Origin: Thamnidium elegans
Taxonomy: Eukaryota > Mucoromycota > Mucoromycetes > Mucorales > Mucoraceae
Direction of reading: 5' to 3'
Assembly: GCA_025201345.1 (NCBI GenBank)
Contig: JAIXMG010000012.1
Span: 852,222-916,221, forward strand
DNA length: 64,000 bases
Shown here: one piece after another, positions 4,182 to 64,000 of the stretch
Numbering within the stretch: the first letter of the stretch is position 1
How the letters are laid out: each line of letters starts with the position of its first letter
Notes under the pieces: generated by a model
The model's input: only the letters and a program-made list of their open reading frames with translations
Database searches by the model: none
Told to the model about the DNA's origin: nothing
Made by a program: the position numbers and the translations under genes

Positions 4182-6435
4182 TTTATTTATTGTATTATTT
4201 TATTTAAAAGATTAAATTGAATTTTTTTTTTAAGTGAAAAAAGTTTTGCTCTTTATATGTACATGGACTGAGACAATCTGGCATTCAATTCACTTGACAG
4301 CTGAATAATCAAAACGGGGGGGGGGAGGTTCTTCTAATGATAGGCATTCTAAACCCTTCTAAAAATGCGCTCATAAAGGTCAAATTACGTCAATTAGAAG
4401 TTCAACACGTTTAAAATCGCGATTATGAGTTTTAAGCTAAACCTACTACTATATGTATAGCAGGGTTCCCTTTTTTTTTTCCCGTAAAATGATAAGACAT
4501 TATTACTAAAAAAAAAATATACGTAGGACATATTAAAGTAAAGCATAATTACTAAAAAAAAAAAAGAAAAAGATATCCTCAAATTTTGATTTTTATTGTT
4601 TAATATGATCCCAGTAAACTTAATTAAGCTCTTTCGGGGTATTTTTTATGCAAATAATACAAACAAAAAATTATACGGTTTGCTTATAAATCCATTATGA
4701 GCTGAAAGTCAATTTGAAGCGAATTACTTTTTGTTCGTAACCCGATAGTCCAGTGAAACGGGAAATACCTTAGTTGTATCAGAATGAACATTACTGAAAA
4801 AAAAACTGTAGCCTAATAAAAGTAATAGAGGAGATTCATTTGTAACTAAGAAACACATTTTTTTTTTTTTTTTTTTATTTGAATAAGGTCGTTAACATTA
4901 GAATCCTTGGAATGGGGGGACTTGCTTATGAATATGATATGTAAAACTTTAAATCGGGATTAATCTCGATTTACCGAAGTTGATCATTAACCTTATAGAC
5001 AAAAGAGAAACATATATGCCAAAGTATATAACCAGCTAATATCATCTTTTTCAAATAAAAAAGAAACATATACTTATATCTGCAATCACAACTAAAAAAA
5101 AAAAGAGTTAACACCACTATATTCCAAATTTTCTAATTTCTTGATAGTTTTCTTTTTTTTTTTTTCGGTTCCGCGGCCTTCATGTCAAAGTTAGCAATAA
5201 TAATGTGCACTTTACGTATGATAATGGAACTAACCATTATGAGCGCGTAAATCATCTTCCCATTAGTATTATCGTTAGAGATTTTTTTCAGATACTAACT
5301 ATTTGAAATTTATCAGACCGTGATGCTTCTCCTCCTACCACATATACTCCCACAGTAGATACTACGGCTTCTCCTCGAATTTAGAGGATATAATATCATT
5401 TCAGAAAAATTTACACCGCTACGAGGATGATTTCATTATTCGGTGTAAAGAAGAGACTAAACTTTTGGGCCACAAGATACATTATGGTGTATAACGACGT
5501 GTCGGGTAATTCATTGAGAAAAGAAGTAAATATGATCTGATTTTATATAATCGAGAAATTAAGTTGTATATTAAGAAGTAGTTATTCGCAACACGAGAAA
5601 ACTAGGGGCCAAATTATGCAAAAAGATCGAGGTATCCTATGACATCTGGATAATTATTATTTTTTTTAGTAAAAGTTGGGTCGTGTGGAAACATCTTCTT
5701 ACAATTCGCCCTCGACAGAGAATGGTCTTGTTCTCTTTTTTTTTTTTTAAAAAAAAAACGACTGTTAAGTCAGTTTGACTATTTTTGAATTCAGAAACAA
5801 TAAACAACTGGATGATTCAATTTAGAGCGTAAAGACTGTTATACGTCAAAAATACGAGTTATCATCAGAAGACGAAGAAGATAAACATATAAAAGAGCAC
5901 TCTCGCTCTAAATCGGATAAAGATGTTGTAATGGTCTTGATAAATTTAAAATGTCATCATTTTTTTTATCTCGTAAAAAAAAAAATATAAAGTCTTTTGA
6001 TATTAGCAATAAAGTAACTATTGGCACTTTTGGATGTATTCCAAGTAGTGTGCTTACAAGTTTGCCGGTTTCATTTATACCAGTTTTAGTACAATCGAAG
6101 CTCTTAAAATTTACTATTCATTACAATGTGTGTATATAAACCTTTCCTGTTACGACACGGAATATGGCATGTGTATTACAAAAAATATATGCACAGCGGT
6201 AAAATACAAGTTTCTGAAAAGCTGCGTTATCGAGATTAATATGCATTTACCCATTTCGATATATCTTCTTAAGTCATAACTATTATTATTAAGTAAGACT
6301 AAGGTCTTTATTGTCATTTGTTTAAAGTGTACCGAAAATTACCAGACATGAATGCTAGGCTTTCATCGTGTTTTGCATTTTATCACAATATGTAACTAGT
6401 CATCTTTAATAAATACATATATAAATACGAAGTTC

Positions 6436-30650: not shown

Positions 30651-31454
30651 TGAAAGCTATTTTGTCGTATCGAGAACTAGGTTGCATACAATGTGGATGC
30701 ATTCGGCCACTGAAAGTGATATTTCATTTGTGCCAATTGCAACGATAGTATACTTGAATCACTCGAACATTTGTATGTTAATACTTTCATGATATTCAAA
30801 TGGGTCGTTCAAGTATTCAGATATTCTTCTTGTTTAAACAATATCTTTACTCCCGCTATAACTTGAGATAAGTATATTTTCCGTCCATAGCATGTATTCA
30901 TATATTAAAACATATTTTTATACTTTTGTAGCTCAGTATATCAAAACAAGAGGAGTATCTGAAAGCTATTTTGTCGTATCGAGAACTAGGTTGCATACAA
31001 TGTGGATGCATTCGGCCACTGAAAGTGATATTTCATTTGTGCCAATTGCAACGATAGTATACTTGAATCACTCGAACATTTGTATGTTAATACTTTCATG
31101 ATATTCAAATGGGTCGTTCAAGTATTCAGATATTCTTCTTGTTTAAACAATATCTTTACTCCCGCTATAACTTGAGATAAGTATATTTTCCGTCCATAGC
31201 ATGTATTCATATATTAAAACATATTTTTATACTTTTGTAGCTCAGTATATCAAAACAAGAGGAGTATCTGAAAGCTATTTTGTCGTATCGAGAACTAGGT
31301 TGCATACAATGTGGATGCATTCGGCCACTGAAAGTGATATTTCATTTGTGCCAATTGCAACGATAGTATACTTGAATCACTCGAACATTTGTATGTTAAT
31401 ACTTTCATGATATTCAAATGGGTCGTTCAAGTATTCAGATATTCTTCTTGTTTA
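30651..31454. repeat. Tandem repeat, 309-bp period, about 2.6 copies
   Basis: The unit beginning TGAAAGCTATTTTGTCGTAT occurs at 30651, 30960 and 31269, exactly 309 bp apart, with no difference I could see over the aligned parts. The first copy lacks the left part of the unit and the third stops after TTCTTCTTGTTTA at about 31454. Each full unit holds the same 69-codon open frame starting ATGTATTCATATATTAAAAC (30892 and 31201), but this is short and probably incidental. Near-identity between copies points to recent duplication or gene conversion. Confidence 0.93.
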
Positions 31455-50958: not shown

Positions 50959-52737
50959 AAGATCCTAAATGTATAAACAAAACATAAAATTAACAATGGG
51001 TTAATGGCATTATGTTTTTTTTTTTTTTTTGGCACTTACATGATTGATAAAAAGTTAAAGAAAGAAGAAGAAAATATCTAGGCTCCCCCTACCCTAAATA
51101 AATAAATTTAAAGTAGTCACTCTTTAATTTAAACTGCGTGGATTTGATTATGCTTGTCGCTAGCCGAAAAATCAATATTTTGAGGAGCTATAAAAAATAA
51201 AGCTCTTAAATATAGTGTTTTTAAACTTATATATAGCACTCTGTAAGCAAAAAATAAGCTTATAGACCAAAAAAAAGGGTTATTATGTGATTTTTACTGC
51301 GAAAGGAACGAAATTAAGAAATTGGGTGAACTATTTTTTGCTTTTTACTGTGAATTATATAAATAAAATAAAGAATGTATATGAAAATTAGCTTAGTTTC
51401 TAAAACTATTTTTAAAATTCGCCTATCGTTATTGTATCATAAGTTCGGACCATATTTTATCCGTCATTTTTTAATTTTTGGTAATATCAGCACCAATTTC
51501 CTTTTTCAATCGTAGTAAAACCTATATACGTAATAGAACCGTTAATTACGCATGTTTTAAAACTAAAATTGTGTAGTTCTGACTGTTTGTTCAGAATTCA
51601 TAGCAGAAACAAAAATAAAAAATGCTTATTTTTTATAGCATTTAAATACCTTAATTCGCCACTGTCTCAGCTATAAATATAACATTGTCTTAATCAGTTT
51701 GTTTTCTTTTATTTGAGCATTTAAAAAAAACTTTAGCTTAAAAATTGATTGAGTAATTTGCATTTAAAAAAATGAAGATAATGATTAAAACCTTAATATC
51801 TCCACCAAAAATTATGCTACTAACTTGAAATAAATAGAAATCGCGTTAAAATTATTAATAGCTTTATCAAAATTATTTACAGCTATCCTCAAAAAGTTTT
51901 TAAAATTTATTCCACATTTTAAAGCAAATACAAAGTAAATTTAATATCATTTGAGTATGTCATCTTTTTTTGAAAAATAATAACAATTTCTTTTTTTACA
52001 AGTAAATTACCTAGACTATTAATGTGAACTTATGTAGAATTTCACCAAAAAAAAGAATATCAAATCAGAATTTCAAAAAAATAAAAATTCGCAAAGTTAT
52101 GACCAGTTCAAAAAAATAAATATATCAAAAATCTTAGAAAAAAAAGCAAATTTTTTTTTTACAAAAGTTGACGTACGGGGTCGAACCAGCGACACGAAGA
52201 TTGCTAATTCGACGCTCTACCAACTGAGCTACACAGATAAACTTTTGAAACTTATAAAATAAATTAAAGATATCCAAGCTGGTTAAAATGTTTTTTGGCA
52301 ATTGCGACTTCTTTTATTACATAAAATTAATTTCTTAAAATTTAATAATTTTAAATATAGCTATTTTTATCGTAATTAACTGTCAAACCGTATTTAATAG
52401 TTTTTATGCTGCCCCAGCGCATCTTAGACTTTTAACGCTCGCGGAGACCGAAATATAGCTAGAATTAATTTGAAAACTTTGGAGAATATGCGGAGACTTT
52501 ATTAATGCATTGTGTGAAAATCTGAAGCTTTTTGAATCATAGCCTAATGCGCTTTTGAATTTAACCCTATTTAATTGACACATTTTGGCCTATAGCGCAC
52601 GCAATAATAATTTGACAGTCACGAAAGTTACTTTAAAAGATGCGGAAAATTACAATGTATCATCTCTCCAAATTTCAGACCCCTACTATTTTTATATCCC
52701 AAACGGCTACAATTAATCCCTATCTTAAATGGTACCC
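50959..52737. other. AT-rich, gene-free transition to the subtelomere
   Basis: No ORF of note. It contains a tRNA-like sequence (52169-52238). A somewhat less AT-rich stretch (52400-52690) ends exactly where the subtelomeric duplicate begins. The CTCCCCCTACCCTAAATAA near 51083 resembles CTCCCCTTACCCTA near 60065, a possible old subtelomeric homology. Confidence 0.45.
52169..52238 (-). ncRNA. tRNA-like sequence (decayed tRNA or tRNA-derived repeat head)
   Basis: In reverse complement it has a good RNA polymerase III A-box region (TAGCTCAGTTGGTAGAGC) and B-box (GGTTCGACCCC) at tRNA spacing, with an intact D-arm. The anticodon arm (CGAATTAGCAATCTTCG) forms a stem only with a nine-base loop. The acceptor ends and the T-arm do not pair properly, so it is unlikely to be a working tRNA. 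If read as a normal loop the anticodon would be AGC (Ala). Confidence 0.5.
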
Positions 52738-55700
52738 CTATCAATCATCTTTTGTTACACTTGTAATATCAATTTACACATTCTTTTGTAATTTAAATTG
52801 GTTATTTATTCGTCCATAACTCAGATTAGCGATACCTCCTTCGTCTCCTTCAATGATAACCTAGCTATATCTACTTATAGTTACCTTATCATTACACAAA
52901 TTTATTCCTAATATCAAATTTATCTTACAAGATTCGAAGGATATCCTTTTTTATATCTTTGAATATAAATACCACGTAATTTTACTTTATAAATAAGTCT
53001 ATCTCATCTTTTAGCTATATTTTACATTCTACATATCGGTTTCTTACTTATAAATATAAAGATCCCTTGAATTATATTTTCTTTATCATATAATTCTAAT
53101 GATTTCATATTTATGGATCGTTTCTCAATGTTTGAATACTTATATCATAAACTAAAAGAAAAGAATACTAGATTAAAACGTATCTTTTCAATAACAGGGT
53201 TTCCCTATAATGCTTTCTCCTAAGAAGACTAAACAGTAATAATTGATTAATATAGTATTTGACATAGAGTTAATTATATATAAAATAAATATTAAATTCA
53301 AAATATAAATCATGTAATAGTCGTATAGTAAATTCTAATTTATTTATATAATTATCATGTGATTATCAAGTGAAAGAATATAATATAGTTATATAAATAA
53401 AACAGCTTTTATTTTTATATTATTAATATATCAAAATTGAATTAAGAGATAAATAAAAAAACAGAATGATAGGTGATGATGTAGAAATTATGGATGAATA
53501 TATAAATAAAAACAATGAAGAAATAAAACAATATAAAAAAGATTTAAAAATTGAAATCAATAAATTAGTTTTAAATGAATGGAAATTCTTAAGTTATGAC
53601 TGGAAAAAGATTACAAACAAATATAAACATCGTACTGAACTAAAAAATGTAAAAAATATAGAAGAGGTAAAAAAAGAATTAACAAATAAATTAGGATATA
53701 TTTCAGTATTCTTTTTTCTAACAATGTTATATACACATAGAGAATATCCTGGTCCTTACTTGGAAATAGAAAAAGGTTTACTATTATTATATCAGTTAAC
53801 CTCTGGTTTTACATCCAAGAATATTAAGAAATATATGCCACATTCATCATTTTATGCTGTCTATAAAAAATTTTGGATAACTAATTATGAATCTTTAAAT
53901 AAATATGTAAATTATTGTCTATATAATATGTTTAGTAATATAAAAATAAGAATATTATCTGCATTAATTAAAAATCCTAAAAATTATAAAAACATTACCA
54001 CTATGCTCGATGGGCACGATATTACAATTGAATATGATAAACCTGATATATCTACGCAAAAAAAATGGTCTTACAAATTAAACTCATCAGGAATTAGAAC
54101 ACAAGTTTTAATGGATATTAATGAAATGGTATTAAGTTTATCAGATAGTCAACTTTGTGGTAATAGCTCTGATGGTGGTATGTTTTTAAATATGAAATTG
54201 TATAATAAAATTAAAGAACAAGATTGTGTAGCATTGGATGGAGGTTATACTCTATTTATAAAACAGTTTGAGAACTTATGTAAAGATAAAAATATTAATT
54301 TAGATGATAAAAACTTTTTCTATCCAATAAGAAAGGAAAATGGTATTGCATTAAATGCACAAGAAGAACATTATAATAAAGTATTTGGAAGTTTTAGATC
54401 TGTAGTGGAAAATCAATTTAAAGAATTATATAATAAATTTAAACGTTTTAGTAATAATAACTCTATAATAAAAACTGATGATATTAAATACATAAATTTA
54501 CAATTAAAAGTTGTATTTTTATTGAAGAATATACAGTTGTTTTCAGATAAATTTAACATTATAACTCAAGAACATCATAAGCTATGGATTAATGAAAATT
54601 TTGAATTTCCAAATGAACTGAGATTAATAGATATAGTTTATACAAATCAAATGGAACAAGTTAAAAAATTAAACGAATTGAGTAAAATACAAAAAGATTT
54701 ATTAAATTTATCTATAGAAAATAATCAAGATAGTATGATAATAGATGATAAGAATGAAATTTTAAACGAAAGTGATAAAAACGAAAGTGATGTAGATTTT
54801 CCTCAATATAAAAATCCAACTAAAAAAAGAAAGAAAAAATCAAAAAATAAAGATAAATTAGATATACATAATATTAGAAATGTTAATAAAGACGAAGGTA
54901 TATATGAAATAGAATATATTGTAACTCATAAAATAATAGATAAACAATATACCTTTCTTGTTAAATGGAAAAATTATGACAACAAGGAGAATAGCTGGGT
55001 CAAAGAAAATGACTTTATAGAAAGAGATATTATAAGAGACTATTTTCAGAAAAACAATATATTATTTCCTAATTACTAAAATATATATGTAATTTAAATA
55101 ATATTCAATCAATAATATAGTGTTTTATTTTATATATAATATTTTATCTATTGATATTGATTAGTCATCTAACATAACTATATCTTAATATAAATATAAC
55201 ACTGTCTCTCTGAGGGACATCTATTATTTCTTAAATGGCTATCATATTAAAGATATTCATAAATAACATTGTATTTAATTTTATAATCTAAACAAAGTGT
55301 TATCGTTTTAGATATTTCACTTAAGTATAAATAATATATCTAATAAAGTACGGAATTATGTGGAAGATGGAGGTATTCCTATATAAAACAGGGGAGAAGG
55401 GAGCGTAGCTTCTGGGAGTGGGTCTATATAAACGGGTGAAAGACGGGAGCGTAGCGACCTGGGAGCAATTGTAGCACTGGGAGCGCATAGGAGTAATATT
55501 GATGAGGTCGTGAAATCGAGATGGGGAGGGGTAAAAAATGAAAATGGGTGTAAAAGAGGGGAAATAAGATAAAATGAATAGGAGAATAAGAAAGTGAATA
55601 AGATAGGGTAAAGGAATATAATAATAAGAAAAATAAAAAAGATGCATAAGTAAAAAAAAAAAAAAAAAAAGCATAAGTAGAAAAATAAATAAAAAAAAAA

Positions 55701-55815
55701 AATAAAAGCATAAGTAGAAAAAAAGGTAGGGCAGATAGGAAAATAGAACAGGCCAACAGGGATCGCCTACCCGGCGACCCAGTTGCCCCATAAAGGACCA
55801 AGGGCGTTGAAGGTT
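52738..55815 (+). repeat. Subtelomeric unit, copy 1 (complete)
   Basis: About 3.08 kb, repeated nearly identically at 56955-60031 (offset 4217 bp, falling to 4216 at the end because one A-run differs by a base). Layout: a ~730-bp AT-rich leader, the 537-codon nuclease-chromodomain gene, ~250 bp of 3' region, and a ~490-bp G-rich block. The block contains TATATAAA boxes, GGGAGCGTAGC repeats, AGCATAAGTAGAAAA repeats with long A-runs, and a GC-rich tail ending CGTTGAAGGTT. The DNA after this copy (AGTAAGGGTAGGTGGGGGG) looks like degenerate telomeric repeat. No terminal inverted repeats were found. Confidence 0.93.
53466..55079 (+). CDS. DDE_Tnp_4/HARBI1-like nuclease with C-terminal chromodomain, copy 1
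   Basis: Intronless, 537 aa. The N-terminal ~170 residues are helical and include a probable helix-turn-helix (YQLTSGFTSKNIKKYMPHSS). The nuclease core has LDGHD (D182), the family-typical NSSDGGMF, ALDGGY (D258) and VVENQFKELYNKF (E315), the DDE order of the DDE_Tnp_4/HARBI1 superfamily. A lysine-rich NLS-like run (TKKRKKKSKNKDK, near residue 460) precedes a chromodomain at about 475-530 (EIEYIVTHK, YTFLVKWKNYDNKENSWV), which normally binds methylated histone tails. The frame is fully open and AT-rich. Harbinger-type elements usually need a separate Myb-like partner protein; none is present. Cutting or integration at heterochromatic or telomeric DNA is inference. Confidence 0.88.
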   Translation: MIGDDVEIMDEYINKNNEEIKQYKKDLKIEINKLVLNEWKFLSYDWKKITNKYKHRTELKNVKNIEEVKKELTNKLGYISVFFFLTMLYTHREYPGPYLEIEKGLLLLYQLTSGFTSKNIKKYMPHSSFYAVYKKFWITNYESLNKYVNYCLYNMFSNIKIRILSALIKNPKNYKNITTMLDGHDITIEYDKPDISTQKKWSYKLNSSGIRTQVLMDINEMVLSLSDSQLCGNSSDGGMFLNMKLYNKIKEQDCVALDGGYTLFIKQFENLCKDKNINLDDKNFFYPIRKENGIALNAQEEHYNKVFGSFRSVVENQFKELYNKFKRFSNNNSIIKTDDIKYINLQLKVVFLLKNIQLFSDKFNIITQEHHKLWINENFEFPNELRLIDIVYTNQMEQVKKLNELSKIQKDLLNLSIENNQDSMIIDDKNEILNESDKNESDVDFPQYKNPTKKRKKKSKNKDKLDIHNIRNVNKDEGIYEIEYIVTHKIIDKQYTFLVKWKNYDNKENSWVKENDFIERDIIRDYFQKNNILFPNY

Positions 55816-56954
55816 AGTAAGGGTAGGTGGGGGGTGGGGTTCCTTTCGTGAGACCTTCAAAAAATATAGTGTCTCAGAACCAATAAAAAAGTGGATAAAA
55901 AACCAAAAAAAATTTATTTGTAGTCATAACATTTTGAAATTCCGATTTTCACAGTCACCGCGGGATAAAGACTACATACACCACAACATATTAACTACAA
56001 ACACTACATTATATTAGCTAGGGACACCACAATATATTCACTACATACACTACTAATATGAGCTACAAACACTACAAAATATAAGCTACAAACACTACAA
56101 TATAAAAGCTAGAAACACTGCAATGATTTTTGGGTAAGGGACTAGCGAATAATGACAAACACTTCAAATTATATCTAACACAATGATATACATCTAGAAT
56201 TAAATGCTCGACTATTTTAATATACTCAAACACTATTATCTTTATCTTTAAATTTCATTTACTCTTCAATCTTATTAAAAATCGTATAAGACAATGTTAC
56301 GAATCCAAATCGAAAGCATCATACTATTTAAGATCACTACAGTCTGCTCTTTATAAAAATAGTGTATCTACTGCCTCGTTTATTATCACACCATTCCATT
56401 TATTTCAGTTATACAGCTACATATTTCATTACTTTTTACTTTGAGTTTAATCTATCATTTATTTTATCATCCATTTCTACTTTAGATTATTAATTACTAT
56501 TTCAAATATCATTTTCTGTTACATTTTCTACTAATTTTACCTTTATTATCTTTTATCCATCAATTTATTACATTATTATTCAAAGGTTATCCTTCATATA
56601 CCATCAGATATGTTACTCCATCTATTTATTTATTTTACAAGACCTTTTAATCATTTCTGTTTGTAAAACCATCAATTGATAAACTTTATTAATCAACTAG
56701 AACAAAAACAACGCACTTAGTTTAGAAAGTGTACATTTTACATCATCTTGGAATCAAATAGAACAAATTATAACGACTCAAGGGAATTATATCTAAGATT
56801 ACATAGCAACTTATATATTCAGAATGAATAACATTCTCACACATCATTATAAATACTTGGACAACAGATATAAATACAATTTCAGAGTTTATATCTGTTT
56901 AATATCCTTATTATTCCTTATACGTTTATTATTTTCTTTTAATAAACTTATATT
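55816..56954. other. Spacer between subtelomeric copies 1 and 2
   Basis: Starts with degenerate G-rich telomere-like sequence (55816-55850), then AT-rich DNA with a minisatellite (annotated separately). No gene. A small frame at 56824 runs into the start of copy 2 and is not supported. Confidence 0.6.
55965..56125. repeat. Degenerate minisatellite of AGCTACAAACACTACA units
   Basis: About six imperfect units of 22-29 bp with the core ACTACAAACACTACA-TATA. It lies just distal to copy 1 of the subtelomeric unit. Confidence 0.75.
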
Positions 56955-59900
56955 CTATCAATCATCTTTTGTTACACTTGTAATATCAATTTACACATTC
57001 TTTTGTAATTTAAATTGGTTATTTATTCGTCCATAACTCAGATTAGCGATACCTCCTTCGTCTCCTTCAATGATAACCTAGCTATATCTACTTATAGTTA
57101 CCTTATCATTACACAAATTTATTCCTAATATCAAATTTATCTTACAAGATTCGAAGGATATCCTTTTTTATATCTTTGAATATAAATACCACGTAATTTT
57201 ACTTTATAAATAAGTCTATCTCATCTTTTAGCTATATTTTACATTCTACATATCGGTTTCTTACTTATAAATATAAAGATCCCTTGAATTATATTTTCTT
57301 TATCATATAATTCTAATGATTTCATATTTATGGATCGTTTCTCAATGTTTGAATACTTATATCATAAACTAAAAGAAAAGAATACTAGATTAAAACGTAT
57401 CTTTTCAATAACAGGGTTTCCCTATAATGCTTTCTCCTAAGAAGACTAAACAGTAATAATTGATTAATATAGTATTTGACATAGAGTTAATTATATATAA
57501 AATAAATATTAAATTCAAAATATAAATCATGTAATAGTCGTATAGTAAATTCTAATTTATTTATATAATTATCATGTGATTATCAAGTGAAAGAATATAA
57601 TATAGTTATATAAATAAAACAGCTTTTATTTTTATATTATTAATATATCAAAATTGAATTAAGAGATAAATAAAAAAACAGAATGATAGGTGATGATGTA
57701 GAAAGTATGGATGAATATATAAATAAAAACAATGAAGAAATAAAACAATATAAAAAAGATTTAAAAATTGAAATCAATAAATTAGTTTTAAATGAATGGA
57801 AATTCTTAAGTTATGACTGGAAAAAGATTACAAACAAATATAAACATCGTACTGAACTAAAAAATGTAAAAAATATAGAAGAGGTAAAAAAAGAATTAAC
57901 AAATAAATTAGGATATATTTCAGTATTCTTTTTTCTAACAATGTTATATACACATAGAGAATATCCTGGTCCTTACTTGGAAATAGAAAAAGGTTTACTA
58001 TTATTATATCAGTTAACCTCTGGTTTTACATCCAAGAATATTAAGAAATATATGCCACATTCATCATTTTATGCTGTCTATAAAAAATTTTGGATAACTA
58101 ATTATGAATCTTTAAATAAATATGTAAATTATTGTCTATATAATATGTTTAGTAATATAAAAATAAGAATATTATCTGCATTAATTAAAAATCCTAAAAA
58201 TTATAAAAACATTACCACTATGCTCGATGGGCACGATATTACAATTGAATATGATAAACCTGATATATCTACGCAAAAAAAATGGTCTTACAAATTAAAC
58301 TCATCAGGAATTAGAACACAAGTTTTAATGGATATTAATGAAATGGTATTAAGTTTATCAGATAGTCAACTTTGTGGTAATAGCTCTGATGGTGGTATGT
58401 TTTTAAATATGAAATTGTATAATAAAATTAAAGAACAAGATTGTGTAGCATTGGATGGAGGTTATACTCTATTTATAAAACAGTTTGAGAACTTATGTAA
58501 AGATAAAAATATTAATTTAGATGATAAAAACTTTTTCTATCCAATAAGAAAGGAAAATGGTATTGCATTAAATGCACAAGAAGAACATTATAATAAAGTA
58601 TTTGGAAGTTTTAGATCTGTAGTGGAAAATCAATTTAAAGAATTATATAATAAATTTAAACGTTTTAGTAATAATAACTCTATAATAAAAACTGATGATA
58701 TTAAATACATAAATTTACAATTAAAAGTTGTATTTTTATTGAAGAATATACAGTTGTTTTCAGATAAATTTAACATTATAACTCAAGAACATCATAAGCT
58801 ATGGATTAATGAAAATTTTGAATTTCCAAATGAACTGAGATTAATAGATATAGTTTATACAAATCAAATGGAACAAGTTAAAAAATTAAACGAATTGAGT
58901 AAAATACAAAAAGATTTATTAAATTTATCTATAGAAAATAATCAAGATAGTATGATAATAGATGATAAGAATGAAATTTTAAACGAAAGTGATAAAAACG
59001 AAAGTGATGTAGATTTTCCTCAATATAAAAATCCAACTAAAAAAAGAAAGAAAAAATCAAAAAATAAAGATAAATTAGATATACATAATATTAGAAATGT
59101 TAATAAAGACGAAGGTATATATGAAATAGAATATATTGTAACTCATAAAATAATAGATAAACAATATACCTTTCTTGTTAAATGGAAAAATTATGACAAC
59201 AAGGAGAATAGCTGGGTCAAAGAAAATGACTTTATAGAAAGAGATATTATAAGAGACTATTTTCAGAAAAACAATATATTATTTCCTAATTACTAAAATA
59301 TATATGTAATTTAAATAATATTCAATCAATAATATAGTGTTTTATTTTATATATAATATTTTATCTATTGATATTGATTAGTCATCTAACATAACTATAT
59401 CTTAATATAAATATAACACTGTCTCTCTGAGGGACATCTATTATTTCTTAAATGGCTATCATATTAAAGATATTCATAAATAACATTGTATTTAATTTTA
59501 TAATCTAAACAAAGTGTTATCGTTTTAGATATTTCACTTAAGTATAAATAATATATCTAATAAAGTACGGAATTATGTGGAAGATGGAGGTATTCCTATA
59601 TAAAACAGGGGAGAAGGGAGCGTAGCTTCTGGGAGTGGGTCTATATAAACGGGTGAAAGACGGGAGCGTAGCGACCTGGGAGCAATTGTAGCACTGGGAG
59701 CGCATAGGAGTAATATTGATGAGGTCGTGAAATCGAGATGGGGAGGGGTAAAAAATGAAAATGGGTGTAAAAGAGGGGAAATAAGATAAAATGAATAGGA
59801 GAATAAGAAAGTGAATAAGATAGGGTAAAGGAATATAATAATAAGAAAAATAAAAAAGATGCATAAGTAAAAAAAAAAAAAAAAAAGCATAAGTAGAAAA

Positions 59901-60031
59901 ATAAATAAAAAAAAAAAATAAAAGCATAAGTAGAAAAAAAGGTAGGGCAGATAGGAAAATAGAACAGGCCAACAGGGATCGCCTACCCGGCGACCCAGTT
60001 GCCCCATAAAGGACCAAGGGCGTTGAAGGTT
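56955..60031 (+). repeat. Subtelomeric unit, copy 2 (complete)
   Basis: Near-identical to copy 1. I noticed one base change in the gene (at 57706, giving Ile8 to Ser8) and a one-base difference in an A-run. It runs directly into GGGGTTAG, so the junction reads TTGGGGTTAG, a remnant of telomeric repeat now 3.96 kb from the chromosome end. Confidence 0.93.
57683..59296 (+). CDS. DDE_Tnp_4/HARBI1-like nuclease with C-terminal chromodomain, copy 2
   Basis: 537 aa, differing from the upstream copy only at residue 8 (Ser for Ile) as far as I can see. All catalytic residues (D182, D258, E315) and the chromodomain are unchanged. Two intact copies of an AT-rich transposase-like gene near a telomere imply either very recent duplication or gene conversion with continued selection. 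The flanking leader (56955-57682) is also conserved, including an ATTAATATATC block and AAAACAGAATG at the start codon. Confidence 0.88.
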   Translation: MIGDDVESMDEYINKNNEEIKQYKKDLKIEINKLVLNEWKFLSYDWKKITNKYKHRTELKNVKNIEEVKKELTNKLGYISVFFFLTMLYTHREYPGPYLEIEKGLLLLYQLTSGFTSKNIKKYMPHSSFYAVYKKFWITNYESLNKYVNYCLYNMFSNIKIRILSALIKNPKNYKNITTMLDGHDITIEYDKPDISTQKKWSYKLNSSGIRTQVLMDINEMVLSLSDSQLCGNSSDGGMFLNMKLYNKIKEQDCVALDGGYTLFIKQFENLCKDKNINLDDKNFFYPIRKENGIALNAQEEHYNKVFGSFRSVVENQFKELYNKFKRFSNNNSIIKTDDIKYINLQLKVVFLLKNIQLFSDKFNIITQEHHKLWINENFEFPNELRLIDIVYTNQMEQVKKLNELSKIQKDLLNLSIENNQDSMIIDDKNEILNESDKNESDVDFPQYKNPTKKRKKKSKNKDKLDIHNIRNVNKDEGIYEIEYIVTHKIIDKQYTFLVKWKNYDNKENSWVKENDFIERDIIRDYFQKNNILFPNY

Positions 60032-60929
60032 GGGGTTAGTACTGGAAAGATCAAGGGTTAGCCTCCCCTTACCCTATCTTTTTATTTGTTGTAAAAATAG
60101 AGAAAAATCGTGGCTTTTTAATGATACTAATCTTAAAAATTAAAAAAAATTATTCCCGGAGTTATTAAAGATTTAGTGTTCCCTACAGACACCCTAAAAT
60201 CAGAGATCGAATCCTGCTGGGAGCAGCATATATTTAAGGGAGATATGGGCTAAAAACACTACATACTAACACATGCACAGTATCAATAAGAGTTTACTAA
60301 AATCCGGGGAATGAATGAGTAAAAATCCGAGCCATGATAGTACAGTACCGTTCAGGTTAAATTAGGATGAAATCTTTCTTAACTGTTTAAAGATTAGAGG
60401 AAAGTTTTTCCATTTGAGAGATGTTAAATAGTCCTTCCAGAAGCGTTTGGTTGGTTAGATATTTAGGTTTTAATTAACCTAGATACATTGTTTATATTTT
60501 CAGTTTTTATTATTGATATATACGAGCGATATATATAACCTTTTGATTATTATTTAAAGTCTGTAATTACAACTTTATTCGACAAGTACCGATTAACTAT
60601 GAATAAATCTGTGCCAAGTTGATTTTCCTTATAAAAGATGTTTGTGATACTGTTACAGAAATAGCCTATACAGAATAACACAATAATAATAAACGACTGT
60701 TTATTATTATTTATCAGGACTTGCCTCACTCAAATATTACAGCAAATATCTCGGACCGATCATTCCCATAAAGGCTCACTTTTCTTATGTTTTGTTATGA
60801 GTACTAGCAATCATCCATAACCCCCTATTTTATCATCATCTAATTCAACTATCATTGAAATCTTTCTTTCTTATATAAATAACCACTCTTTCTTTTCAAA
60901 TAATAAACAATATCTTTTTAAGATTTTTA
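60032..60929. other. Spacer between copies 2 and 3
   Basis: Begins with the short telomeric remnant GGGGTTAG. Around 60500-60600 it resembles 42340-42425 (TATATAACCTTTTGATTATTATTTAAA), and TATAAAAGATG followed by an AATAAA-type signal suggests another LTR-like piece. Around 60200 a B-box-like GATCGAATCC is present without a matching tRNA structure. No gene. Confidence 0.5.
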
Positions 60930-62022
60930 TCAAACTTTACTTGACTTATATCATATATATCAATAATTCTACTCAATAAATAAATCTATCCCATCTTTTA
61001 CCTATATTTTATACTCTATATATATATAGTTTCTTACTTATAAAGATTCCTTAAGTTATATTTTCTTTATCATGTAATTCTCTGTAAACCAATTCCTTTT
61101 TATTTTATTTCTCTACGTATTATATCTGTTACATAATACTCTCTTAGTTGAACAGCTATAAGTCTGGTGTTCACTTTCCTTTTGAACTTGTATAGTTATA
61201 TCTTTTTATTTCTACCTTACAAATAACTATCACTCAATTTGTAACAATAATAACTATATTGTGATATTAACGACTATAAAATAAAAGTTATATCAAGAAA
61301 TAAAATAAAAAGTAAAATAACTAGATAATTATCAGACTAAGAATAGATTGTTATTTTTATTAATGAAAAAGTGTGTGCCTTATATACATATTATGGGTTA
61401 AATAAGCGATGCGTATTATGTTTCTAATTGGCTTCTTTAACAAAAGACGTAAGATAGAGGCTTGTTGATTATAAATAATGTGACAATTATTTATGTAAAC
61501 CAGTTATCTTCTGTTTGTCAAGAGTTTAAGCAGCCTTCTAGTTTTATGATCAAAGCGATAGAACAATAGAATATATCTGAGATTAATTTGTAAATAAACA
61601 CTGTGATTTTGTGTATAGCTTATGTAAGTGACATATGAGGATATGACTTGTATAGGTATATATAAATTAGTACTTATTGAAATATAATACGTAGATATAA
61701 CATATATAATCCTAAGGATTTCATATTTATGGATTTTTTCTCAATGTTTGGATACTTATATCATGAATTAAAAGACAATAATACTAGATTAAAATGTATC
61801 TTTTCAACAACAGGCTATCTCCATAATGCTTTCTCCTATCATAACTATATCTTAATATAAATATAGCACCGTCACTTTGAGGGACATCTATTACTTCTTA
61901 AATGGCTCTCATATTAAAGATATTCATAAATAACATTGTATTTAATCTTATAATCTAAACAAAATGTTATCCTTCTAGATATTTCATTTAAATATAAATA
62001 ATTTATTTAATAAAGAAGCCAA
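60930..62022 (+). repeat. Subtelomeric unit, copy 3: left and 3' flanks joined, gene deleted
   Basis: 60930-61083 and 61705-61835 match the leader of copies 1 and 2 (AATAAATCTATCCCATCTTTT; ATTTCATATTTATGG ... AATGCTTTCTCCTA). The sequence then jumps straight to the region after the stop codon (ATAACTATATCTTAATATAAATATAGCAC...). Everything equivalent to about 53222-55170, including the whole nuclease gene, is missing. It is diverged by scattered substitutions, so this is an older copy. A solo LTR and ~170 bp of other DNA are inserted in the leader. Confidence 0.85.
61260..61702 (-). mobile_element. Solo LTR (443 bp) with TATAT target duplication
   Basis: Plus-strand ends TGTGATATTAACG and GTAGATATAACA, flanked by TATAT at 61255-61259 and 61703-61707. 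In reverse complement it is the 546-bp family of 45080-45625 with an internal deletion of about 100 bp around the GCGCTTATT block. It sits inside subtelomeric copy 3. Confidence 0.93.
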
Positions 62023-62439
62023 CAGTTTTATTATGTATGAAAAAGTGATCTTTTATTTATTCTTTATCTAAAATAAACTTCTTTTTATAATAATTTAAAA
62101 TATCCTTCTTTACAAGTATGCTTTTCCACCTAATACCTTATCTAATTAAGTATTACAACTTAACAACTTATATCTCTTCTGCTAACTAGCCCGTAAAGTA
62201 TATCCCCATCTATTGATTAGGTTAATAATCATCCTTAGCAACTTAAGTTTTATTTAGATGTACTATTATATGTTGTATGCAAATAATAATATAATTTATA
62301 CAAAGTTTTACAAAAAAAAAATATACATAAATATAATACTATCTGTACACTACTAACTAATCCGTATATCAACGAGATATATGTAGTAATAAAGTATTTG
62401 TAAGAGGTTATTGGAGCAATACAGTTATATATGATATAT

Positions 62440-62720
62440 ACAGACGATATATACTTCTTTATATTTATTATTACTACGATACGATATTAAAGATCAAAAC
62501 TAAACATTATTAATTACCTATGATTAAAATACAATATATAATTATTTTAAAAAATTATCCACTTTATTATTAGCAAATACAAAGACAGGGAAACAATCAT
62601 TTAATAATAAGAAAATACCAATTAAACACAATGTGAATAAACACTTAAGCCCAAACCAGATAACAAACGAATTGGATTATCAATAAGGACTAGCCTTAAC
62701 TTTTTTCATATTAAGCTAAT
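62440..62720 (+). repeat. Diverged copy of the second LTR-like family
   Basis: TGATATATACAGACGATATATAC ... ATCAAAACTAAACATTATTA ... CCAATTAAACACAATG ... GGATTATCAATAAGGA follows the same order as the reverse complement of 43652-43400. Ends uncertain. Confidence 0.65.
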
Positions 62721-62722
62721 CC

Positions 62723-62840
62723 ATATGACAATAAAATAATACTTATAATAATAACTTAATCCTTATGACAATAACTTAATCTTTATGACAATAAACTAAT
62801 TCTTATAACAATGAATTAATCCTTATGAGAAACATTTATG
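62723..62840. repeat. Degenerate short tandem repeat (TTAATCCTTATGACAATAA units)
   Basis: About five imperfect units of 19-25 bp (CTAATCCATATGACAATAA, CTTAATCCTTATGACAATAA and so on). Confidence 0.75.
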
Positions 62841-62946
62841 TTACAAATGTTTTTTTGATTTCAATGTATATAAAAATAATAATAAAAATAAGTTTCACAA
62901 TTTTTATTTTATTTTAATAACATATCATCAAAAACCATAAATATAG

Positions 62947-63817
62947 TACGGAATTAGATGGAAGATGGAGGTATTCCTTCATAATTCTCTAAAGAATGGG
63001 AGCGTAGCTTCTGGGAGAAGGGGTATATAAATGGGTGAAAGAAGGGAGCGTAGCTTCTGGGAGTTCCTTCATAATTATCCAAAGAATGGGAGCGTAGCTT
63101 CTGGGAGAAGGGGTATATAAATGGGTGAAAGAAGGGAGCGTAGCTTCTGGGAGTTCCTTCATAATTCTCCAAAGAATGGGAGCGTAGCTTCTGGGAGAAG
63201 GGGTATATAAATGGGTGAAAGAAGGGAGCGTAGCTTCTGGGAGTTCCTTCATAATTCTCCAAAGAATGGGAGCGTAGCTTCTGGGAGAAGGGGTATATAA
63301 ATGGGTGAAAGAAGGGAGCGTAGCTTCTGGGAGTTCCTTCATAATTATCCAAAGAATGGGAGCGTAGCTTCTGGGAGATGGGGTATATAAATGGGTGAAA
63401 GATGGGAGCGTAGCTTCTAGGAGATGGTGTATATAAACGGGTGGTAGATGGGAGCGTAGCGACCTGGGAGCATGAGTAGCACAGGGAGCGCATAGGAGTA
63501 ATATTGATGAGGTCGTGAAATCGAGATGGGGAGGGGTAAAAAATGAAAATGGGTGTAAAAGAGGGGAAATAAGATAAAATGAATAGGAGAATAAGAAAGT
63601 GAATAAGATAGGGTAAAGGAATATAATAATAAGAAAAATAAAAAAGATGCATAAGTAAAAAAAAAAAAAAAAAAGCATAAGTAGAAAAATAAATAAAAAA
63701 AAAAAATAAAAGCATAAGTAGAAAAAAAGGTAGGGCAGATAGGAAAATAGAACAGGCCAACAGGGATCGCCTACCCGGCGACCCAGTTGCCCCATAAAGG
63801 ACCAAGGGCGTTGAAGG
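62947..63817 (+). repeat. Subtelomeric unit, copy 3: terminal G-rich block
   Basis: Equivalent to 55360-55815 and 59576-60031. From about 63480 it is almost identical to them, including the A-runs, the GATCGCCTACCCGGCGACCC stretch and the tail CGTTGAAGG, and it then passes directly into the telomere. The front part is expanded by the 90-bp minisatellite. Minus-strand open frames through this block follow the repeat and are not credible genes. Confidence 0.92.
62971..63420 (+). repeat. 90-bp minisatellite, five copies, each with a TATA-like box
   Basis: The phrase TTCCTTCATAATT recurs every 90 bp from 62974. Each unit has two copies of GGGAGCGTAGCTTCTGGGAG about 45 bp apart with GGGTATATAAATGGG between. 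A further TATATAAACGGG occurs near 63430. In copies 1 and 2 of the subtelomeric unit only about one such repeat is present. Confidence 0.95.
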
Positions 63818-64000
63818 TTGGGGTTAGGGATTATGATTGGGGTTGGGGTTGGGGATTATGATTGGGGTTGGGGATTATGATTGGGGTTGGGGTTGGGGAT
63901 TATGATTGGGGTTGGGGTTGGGGTTGGGGTTGGGGTTGGGGTTGGGGTTGGGGTTGGGGTTGGGGTTGGGGTTGGGGTTGGGGTTGGGGTTGGGGTTGGG
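63818..64000 (+). repeat. Telomere, TTGGGG repeats with proximal variant units
   Basis: The first ~85 bp mix TTGGGG with TTAGGG (once) and the block GGATTATGATTGGGG (four times). From about 63902 to the end it is uninterrupted TTGGGG (some 16 repeats). The G-rich strand reads 5' to 3' toward the end, the expected polarity for a chromosome right end. The repeat is the Tetrahymena-type hexamer rather than the TTAGGG common in fungi. Confidence 0.95.

Follow-up and report, generated by a model that had tools for sequence, protein, structure and literature searches.

The terminal 64 kb of Thamnidium elegans contig C4 (JAIXMG010000012.1, positions 852,222 to 916,221 of the forward strand; the whole stretch is called the window here) closes inside a telomeric (TTGGGG)n array, and near this end lie two copies of a gene for a 537-amino acid (aa) protein that joins a DDE_Tnp_4 nuclease domain to a chromodomain. 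Comparison of this region with the rest of the 34.1-Mb, 64-contig genome leaves us highly confident that the gene is the sole one of a PIF/Harbinger-like cut-and-paste transposon, with the chromodomain at the C-terminal end of its transposase, and that this transposon inserted once, at a TAA, in a non-coding telomere-associated repeat. At the level of sequence, the element ends, the target duplication, the pre-insertion sites, the independent insertions, and the residues of the catalytic triad are established. Identity and position strongly suggest that copies of the filled repeat unit then arose both within C4, which has two, and at further chromosome ends (C7 and C26, each with one that is cut off), the transposon being carried passively; recombination would be the likely route of this copying.

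Transposon ends, target duplications, and pre-insertion sites

A first-pass annotation of the window had reported two nearly identical units of ~3.08 kb, each with an intact 537-aa gene and both within 11.3 kb of the chromosome end. The duplication and its position were confirmed: 52738-55815 aligns to 56955-60031 over 3,078 columns with 99.935% identity and one gap, both open reading frames (ORFs) are intact, and the window closes in (TTGGGG)n. The unit length was not, as the tandem spacing is 4,217 bp and position 52738 is nothing more than the edge of a 5'-truncated first unit. The stretches examined contain this edge six times, and five of these copies (all but that of unit 1) extend upstream into common sequence. 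The 3.08-kb piece was rejected as a mobile unit; what carries the gene is a transposon of 1,946 bp nested in a longer repeat (Table 1).

Self-comparison revealed a third, diverged unit between this pair and the telomere that lacks the gene. Its sequence corresponds to unit 1 on both sides of the transposon (53088-53222 to 61704-61838, and 55169-55348 to 61836-62015), and the intervening ~1.95 kb is absent. Seventeen units were inspected in all. Eleven were empty (the third unit of the window, three on C29, two on C35, and one each on C23, C55, C3, C54, and C5), four were filled (two on C4, one each on C7 and C26), and in the remaining two, the C24 unit and the inner C26 unit, the target site was interrupted by a different insert. 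This insert lies beside the transposon target at ~456950 on C24 and at ~4208-4767 of locus L033 on C26, where it measures 560 bp; related sequence also adjoins the C35 copy of the transposon. On C35 and C23 the pre-insertion site has just one TAA, in the sequence CCTAACATAAC, and its 60-bp flanks are 98-100% identical to the window; the filled site in the window reads CCTAA, the element, and then TAACATAAC. Because the empty C35 and C23 units carry a single TAA, the window site represents a 3-bp TAA target-site duplication (TSD).

The element ends, GAAGACTAAACAGTAATAATTGAT and (reverse complement) GATGACTAATCAATATCAATAGAT, match at 18 of 24 positions, a level of agreement found in ~5e-5 of random 24-mer pairs from the same repeat unit. 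Terminal inverted repeats (TIRs), which had been reported as lacking, are thus present as imperfect 24-bp sequences that bound the nested element (1,946 bp) and not the unit. Full-length copies with the same ends were found on C23 and C35, the C42 copy retains both ends around a damaged interior, and partial copies occur on C28 and C32. Exact 3-bp duplications were seen at three sites, i.e., TAA in the window, TAG/TAG on C23, and AAG/AAG on C42.

Several observations weigh against a single insertion of a Harbinger-like element. Nine of the 11 empty units, which are more diverged, have CCTAT instead of CCTAA, and the empty C23 unit is 98% identical to the window over 60 bp, yet 95% over 494 bp. 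The TIR is short and imperfect, the duplication flanking the C35 copy has one mismatch (TAA/AAA), and the TAG and AAG targets fall outside the classic TNA preference of Harbinger elements (PMC12477816; this and the other papers cited are quoted from excerpts), so that one of the three exact duplications (TAA) fits, among few sites. The sole sign of recent movement is the ~0.6% divergence between copies. Finally, the filled units outside C4 rest on partial copies, since those on C7 and C26 are gapped and cut by contig ends. Over the first ~1.4 kb of loci L013 (C7) and L033 (C26), these units, cut by the contig start, are 98.9-99.5% identical to the window element with 6-15 gap positions, which may reflect poor assembly ends instead of real decay.

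Table 1. Features of the telomeric end of the window (coordinates are those of the window).
Feature	Position	Strand	Evidence
Transposon copy 1, 1,946 bp, PIF/Harbinger-like, one gene	53224..55169	+	Two pre-insertion sites; same ends in independent C35 and C23 copies
Transposon copy 2, same insertion, duplicated with host unit	57441..59386	+	99.95% identical to copy 1
Left target-site duplication TAA (right copy 55170-55172)	53221..53223	.	C35/C23 pre-insertion sites with single TAA
Left terminal inverted repeat, 24 bp	53224..53247	+	18/24 matches to right end
Right terminal inverted repeat, 24 bp	55146..55169	-	18/24 matches to left end
537-aa transposase-chromodomain gene, copy 1	53466..55079	+	Intact ORF
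537-aa transposase-chromodomain gene, copy 2	57683..59296	+	Intact ORF
DDE_Tnp_4 domain, residues 182-354 (D182, D258, E315)	54009..54527	+	Profile match, alignment
Chromodomain, residues 480-529 (cage Y480, W501, Y504)	54903..55052	+	Profile match, HP1 alignment
Telomere-associated repeat unit 1, 5'-truncated, with transposon	52738..55815	+	Self-alignment, unit comparison
Telomere-associated repeat unit 2, with transposon, then short telomere-like tract	55816..60031	+	Self-alignment, unit comparison
Telomere-associated repeat unit 3, diverged, without transposon, empty site ~61837-61838	60032..63819	+	Self-alignment, unit comparison
Telomere, (TTGGGG)n with interspersed variants	63820..64000	+	Sequence repeats

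The transposase and its chromodomain

The 537-aa reading frame is the only long one in the element; within 53224-55169 the second-longest ORF encodes 48 aa, no others reach 45 aa, and no reverse transcriptase is present. Two-gene Harbinger members carry a second gene with a Myb-like domain. Since the element has no second ORF longer than 48 aa, it was filed as PIF/Harbinger-like and not as a two-gene Harbinger. Both domains of the protein exceed their Pfam gathering scores (DDE_Tnp_4, E = 1.6e-8; Chromo, E = 2.4e-8). In an alignment of the protein with 33 relatives, hand-picked from the best 120 of 168, D182, D258, and E315 were invariant in all 34 proteins and Chromo was detected in 31. The triad positions and the C-terminal chromodomain given by the first-pass annotation are correct, the latter being an in-frame fusion. 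The predicted transposase fold aligns with those of piggyBac and Tn5 transposases (VIA-align, predicted structure), and the chromodomain has an HP1-like predicted fold with a three-aromatic cage, whose residues were placed through alignment with the cage-forming residues of HP1.

The DDE site of the transposase would cut both element ends and join them to the target with a 3-bp stagger, and the helical N-terminal part of the protein may bind the element's own ends, with no Myb-like partner. More tentatively, the chromodomain might bind H3K9-methylated nucleosomes and so bias insertion toward heterochromatin; from the cage residues, steering of this kind is plausible.

Related elements share parts of this organization. 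A 62%-identical subfamily (L006, L007, and L009 on C11, C55, and C9, respectively; ~1.83 kb) is flanked by TAG/TAG, AAT/TAC, and TAT/TAT in that order, i.e., a 3-bp duplication at two of three loci. A more distant sister family of DDE-chromodomain elements (L014-L019 on C31, C32, C10, C5, C3, and C17) has ~43-44% protein identity to the window family; all six of its copies carry inverted repeats, 377-379 bp long, whose two arms are 99.7-100% identical in a given copy. In L014, these repeats contain the chromodomain-coding end of the gene, and the C-terminal 110 residues encoded by a minus-strand ORF in the left repeat, which include the chromodomain, are identical to those of the transposase. 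Corresponding minus-strand ORFs were listed in L015, L017, L018, and L019, and L016 was absent from that ORF list. A one-sided, self-complementary (hairpin) block adjoins the repeats; it measures 450-456 bp, or 581 bp in L018. With this block counted in, exact 3-bp duplications (ATA, CTT, TCA, TAG, and, in L018, ATT) flank all five copies in which both ends are readable; the outer end of L019 was looked for and not found. Relative to the hairpin, the gene runs one way in L014, L016, L017, and L019 and the opposite way in L015 and L018, and two core orientations are what recombination between the inverted repeats would produce.

Genomic placement and alternative explanations

To describe where the family lies, 30 places were kept from at least 75 matches of the 537-aa protein (the best 81 of 105 candidates); this selection was made by hand, with neighbors merged, the C4/C7/C26 insertion counted once, and chromodomain-only matches and small fragments dropped. 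Several of the 30 are fragments, counted whatever their chromodomain status. Long terminal repeat (LTR) integrase (rve) matches served for comparison, together with 101 Tc1/mariner-type DDE_3 places (48 long, 53 partial) from at least 165 matches (the best 150 of 406 candidates), and 16 places (41 matches) of other DDE_Tnp_4 sequences missed by the 537-aa search, many of which resemble intron-bearing host genes and might have a chromodomain in a neighboring exon. Of the family's 30 places, 19 lay within 50 kb of a contig end, as did 88 of the 130 rve places, 25 of the 48 long and 5 of the 53 partial DDE_3 places, 1 of the 16 other DDE_Tnp_4 places, and 3,024 of 20,000 random positions. A contig end is a mere proxy for a chromosome end, since assemblies would tend to break at repeats. 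In Fisher tests, no difference between the family and either rve (P = 0.67) or long DDE_3 (P = 0.36) was detectable, and the family differed from other DDE_Tnp_4 (P = 1.7e-4) and partial DDE_3 (P = 3.6e-7). From the latter two contrasts we read no effect of the chromodomain, as both groups look to be largely host genes or old fragments.

Does the chromodomain act as a true heterochromatin-targeting module that decides where the element lands? We consider this possible, if somewhat less than probable. The aromatic cage, the HP1-like fold, and the presence of Chromo in most of the aligned proteins are consistent with it, as is the finding that 26 of the 30 family places have a contig end or an rve match no more than 50 kb away, vs. 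~25% of random positions. The rarity of other DDE_Tnp_4 sequences near contig ends points the same way, though many of these resemble host genes. However, the placement of long DDE_3 elements is similar (an end or rve is near in 40 of 48; an rve match within 50 kb in 32 of 48, vs. 14 of 30 for the family), and we therefore do not claim that the chromodomain determines location. The DDE_3 elements may themselves have chromodomains, many rve elements carry a chromodomain, and purging of insertions from gene-rich DNA would yield the same pattern. A chromodomain-free control was sought in Copia elements; the RVT_2 profile had no match in this genome nor in 14 control genomes and is hence uninformative, and a hAT profile search gave two matches.

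A telomere-directed element was one possibility raised at first pass; that the DDE-chromodomain unit itself targets chromosome ends and mobilizes the whole repeat is very improbable. The closeness of both window copies to the telomere (within 11.3 kb) would suit it, as would the finding of one and the same insertion at the ends of C4, C7, and C26, but the pre-insertion sites already largely refute it. The window insertion lies at a TAA inside the repeat and not at telomere repeats, the flanks of the C23, C35, and C42 copies are non-telomeric, and the independent copies are ~474 kb (C23), 120 kb (C32), 72 kb (C28), 34 kb (C35), and 8 kb (C42) from the nearest contig end. Moreover, since proximity to contig ends is not detectably different from that of LTR integrases and long DDE_3 elements, telomere targeting is unsupported. 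On these grounds it was rejected.

What is telomere-associated is the host repeat and not the transposon. With 446 bp of the unit's 3' end as a probe, at least 74 matches were obtained (the best 40 of 42 candidates), and the 33 covering at least 276 bases were counted. The 41 shorter matches that were dropped comprised sub-repeats (including a group at ~443 kb on C24), pieces cut by contig ends, and five short matches (C4, C5, C8, C12, and C38) that appear to be A-rich low complexity. All 33 long matches, on 15 contigs, lay within ~15 kb of a contig end with the 3' side toward that end, a placement less telling on C54 and C46 because of the small size of these contigs (16 and 32 kb). Just two of the 33, both of them C4 matches, close a unit that was seen to contain the gene, which argues further against telomere direction; on C7 and C26, the filled units are truncated ahead of their 3' ends. 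Each unit terminates in GGGCGTTGAAGGTT, and next comes either the telomere or a telomere-like tract with another unit behind it. No helicase ORF was present in two gene-free units, where every ORF of at least 60 aa was minus-strand and low complexity. Given the oriented terminal placement, the unit ends, and the ORFs of these two units, the repeat resembles a Y'-type terminal repeat in its behavior, and the transposon is a passenger in it. Both filled C4 units share the insertion and are nearly identical, and the duplication is thus later than the insertion.

The telomere itself consists of (TTGGGG)n with GGGATTATGATT variants (63820-64000, and the ends of C4, C23, C29, and C35). A (TTGGGG)4 search matched the right ends of these four contigs only, with none on the reverse strand.

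Also very improbable is a domesticated subtelomeric gene maintained by selection and recombination: four intact full-length copies with 99-100% protein identity and a dN/dS of 0.26 between subfamilies would favor it, but such a ratio is expected of any active autonomous transposon, TIRs, TSDs, and independent sites are retained, the C42, C28, and C32 copies are broken, truncated, or split, and there is no signal of purifying selection among copies, so that domestication was rejected. The window gene differs from the C35 copy by one synonymous and seven nonsynonymous changes and from the C23 copy by one and six, and C35 differs from C23 by none and five; with 278 synonymous and 1,333 nonsynonymous sites, the neutral expectation is ~1:4.8, and the observed values are near neutral, small as the counts are. 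In the comparison with the 62%-identical subfamily (C11), dN/dS is 0.26 for the gene, 0.17 for its catalytic region, and 0.38 for the chromodomain, and in the sister family C31 and C32 differ by five synonymous and five nonsynonymous changes (dN/dS 0.2). Taken from substitutions, this pattern fits an active transposon lineage with decaying inserted copies and not a host-retained gene. The earlier suggestion of a domesticated gene kept by recombination hence stands as far as a subtelomeric unit was amplified, and not as to domestication, given the near-neutral ratio of one synonymous to 6-7 nonsynonymous changes.

Elsewhere in the window, a tRNA-like stretch followed by an A-run lies just upstream of the array (52165-52245, minus strand); it contains A-box- and B-box-like motifs and is perhaps tRNA-derived, with no ARAGORN call. 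A tandem repeat with a 309-bp period (2.6 copies, 100% matches) spans 30651-31454. Searches of the 64-kb window with Rfam (gathering thresholds) and ARAGORN gave no matches.

Relationship to known elements

The T. elegans element resembles PIF/Harbinger transposons in its DDE_Tnp_4 domain and triad, its short TIRs, and its 3-bp target duplication, and differs in having one gene without a Myb-like partner, a C-terminal chromodomain, and a single TNA match among its exact duplications. Yeast Y' elements are terminal, oriented, tandem subtelomeric units with telomere tracts between them and a helicase ORF; the T. elegans host repeat shares this arrangement, whereas its two gene-free units lack the helicase ORF. 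The MoTeRs of Pyricularia are telomere-targeted retrotransposons that form tandem arrays at chromosome ends (PMC8381367). As far as that excerpt describes them, the host repeat alone is similar, in its tandem terminal arrays and the telomere-like tracts at unit junctions; unlike MoTeRs, it has no MoTeR-type ORF and its transposon is a passenger. Chromovirus (Ty3/Gypsy) integrases also carry a C-terminal chromodomain on a DDE-type recombinase (PMC3248453), but the T. elegans element is a cut-and-paste DNA transposon with neither reverse transcriptase nor LTRs.

A 2024 survey of fungi lists chromodomains in Maverick and chromovirus elements (PMC10799480), and in the excerpts that name both Harbinger and chromodomain, the two sit in separate elements. 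The titles and abstract openings searched, which mostly leave out the subscription literature, held no description of a DDE_Tnp_4-chromodomain fusion, and we do not claim that it is unpublished. Literature searches on telomeres of Mucorales or Thamnidium yielded no usable papers.

A striking but wrong lead, that of a telomere-directed DDE element, is thus replaced by a nested insertion with both empty and filled sites. The remaining interest lies in a chromodomain fused to the nuclease of a DNA transposon, a variation on a known kind of transposon. In Mucor circinelloides, H3K9me2 is abundant at repeats, centromeres, and telomeres, and most Mucorales are described as having no enzymes for 5-methylcytosine and H3K27 methylation (PMC12332000, excerpt); these fungi could therefore offer a simple test of chromodomain-guided cut-and-paste insertion. 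It is conceivable, though on balance unlikely, that this lineage reads H3K9 methylation through its own transposase and lands in heterochromatin, and that in the sister branch the reader was duplicated into the 378-bp inverted repeats, so as to produce a stand-alone chromodomain protein and a gene core that alternates between two orientations relative to the terminal hairpin. If true, this would be a DNA-transposon counterpart of chromovirus targeting.

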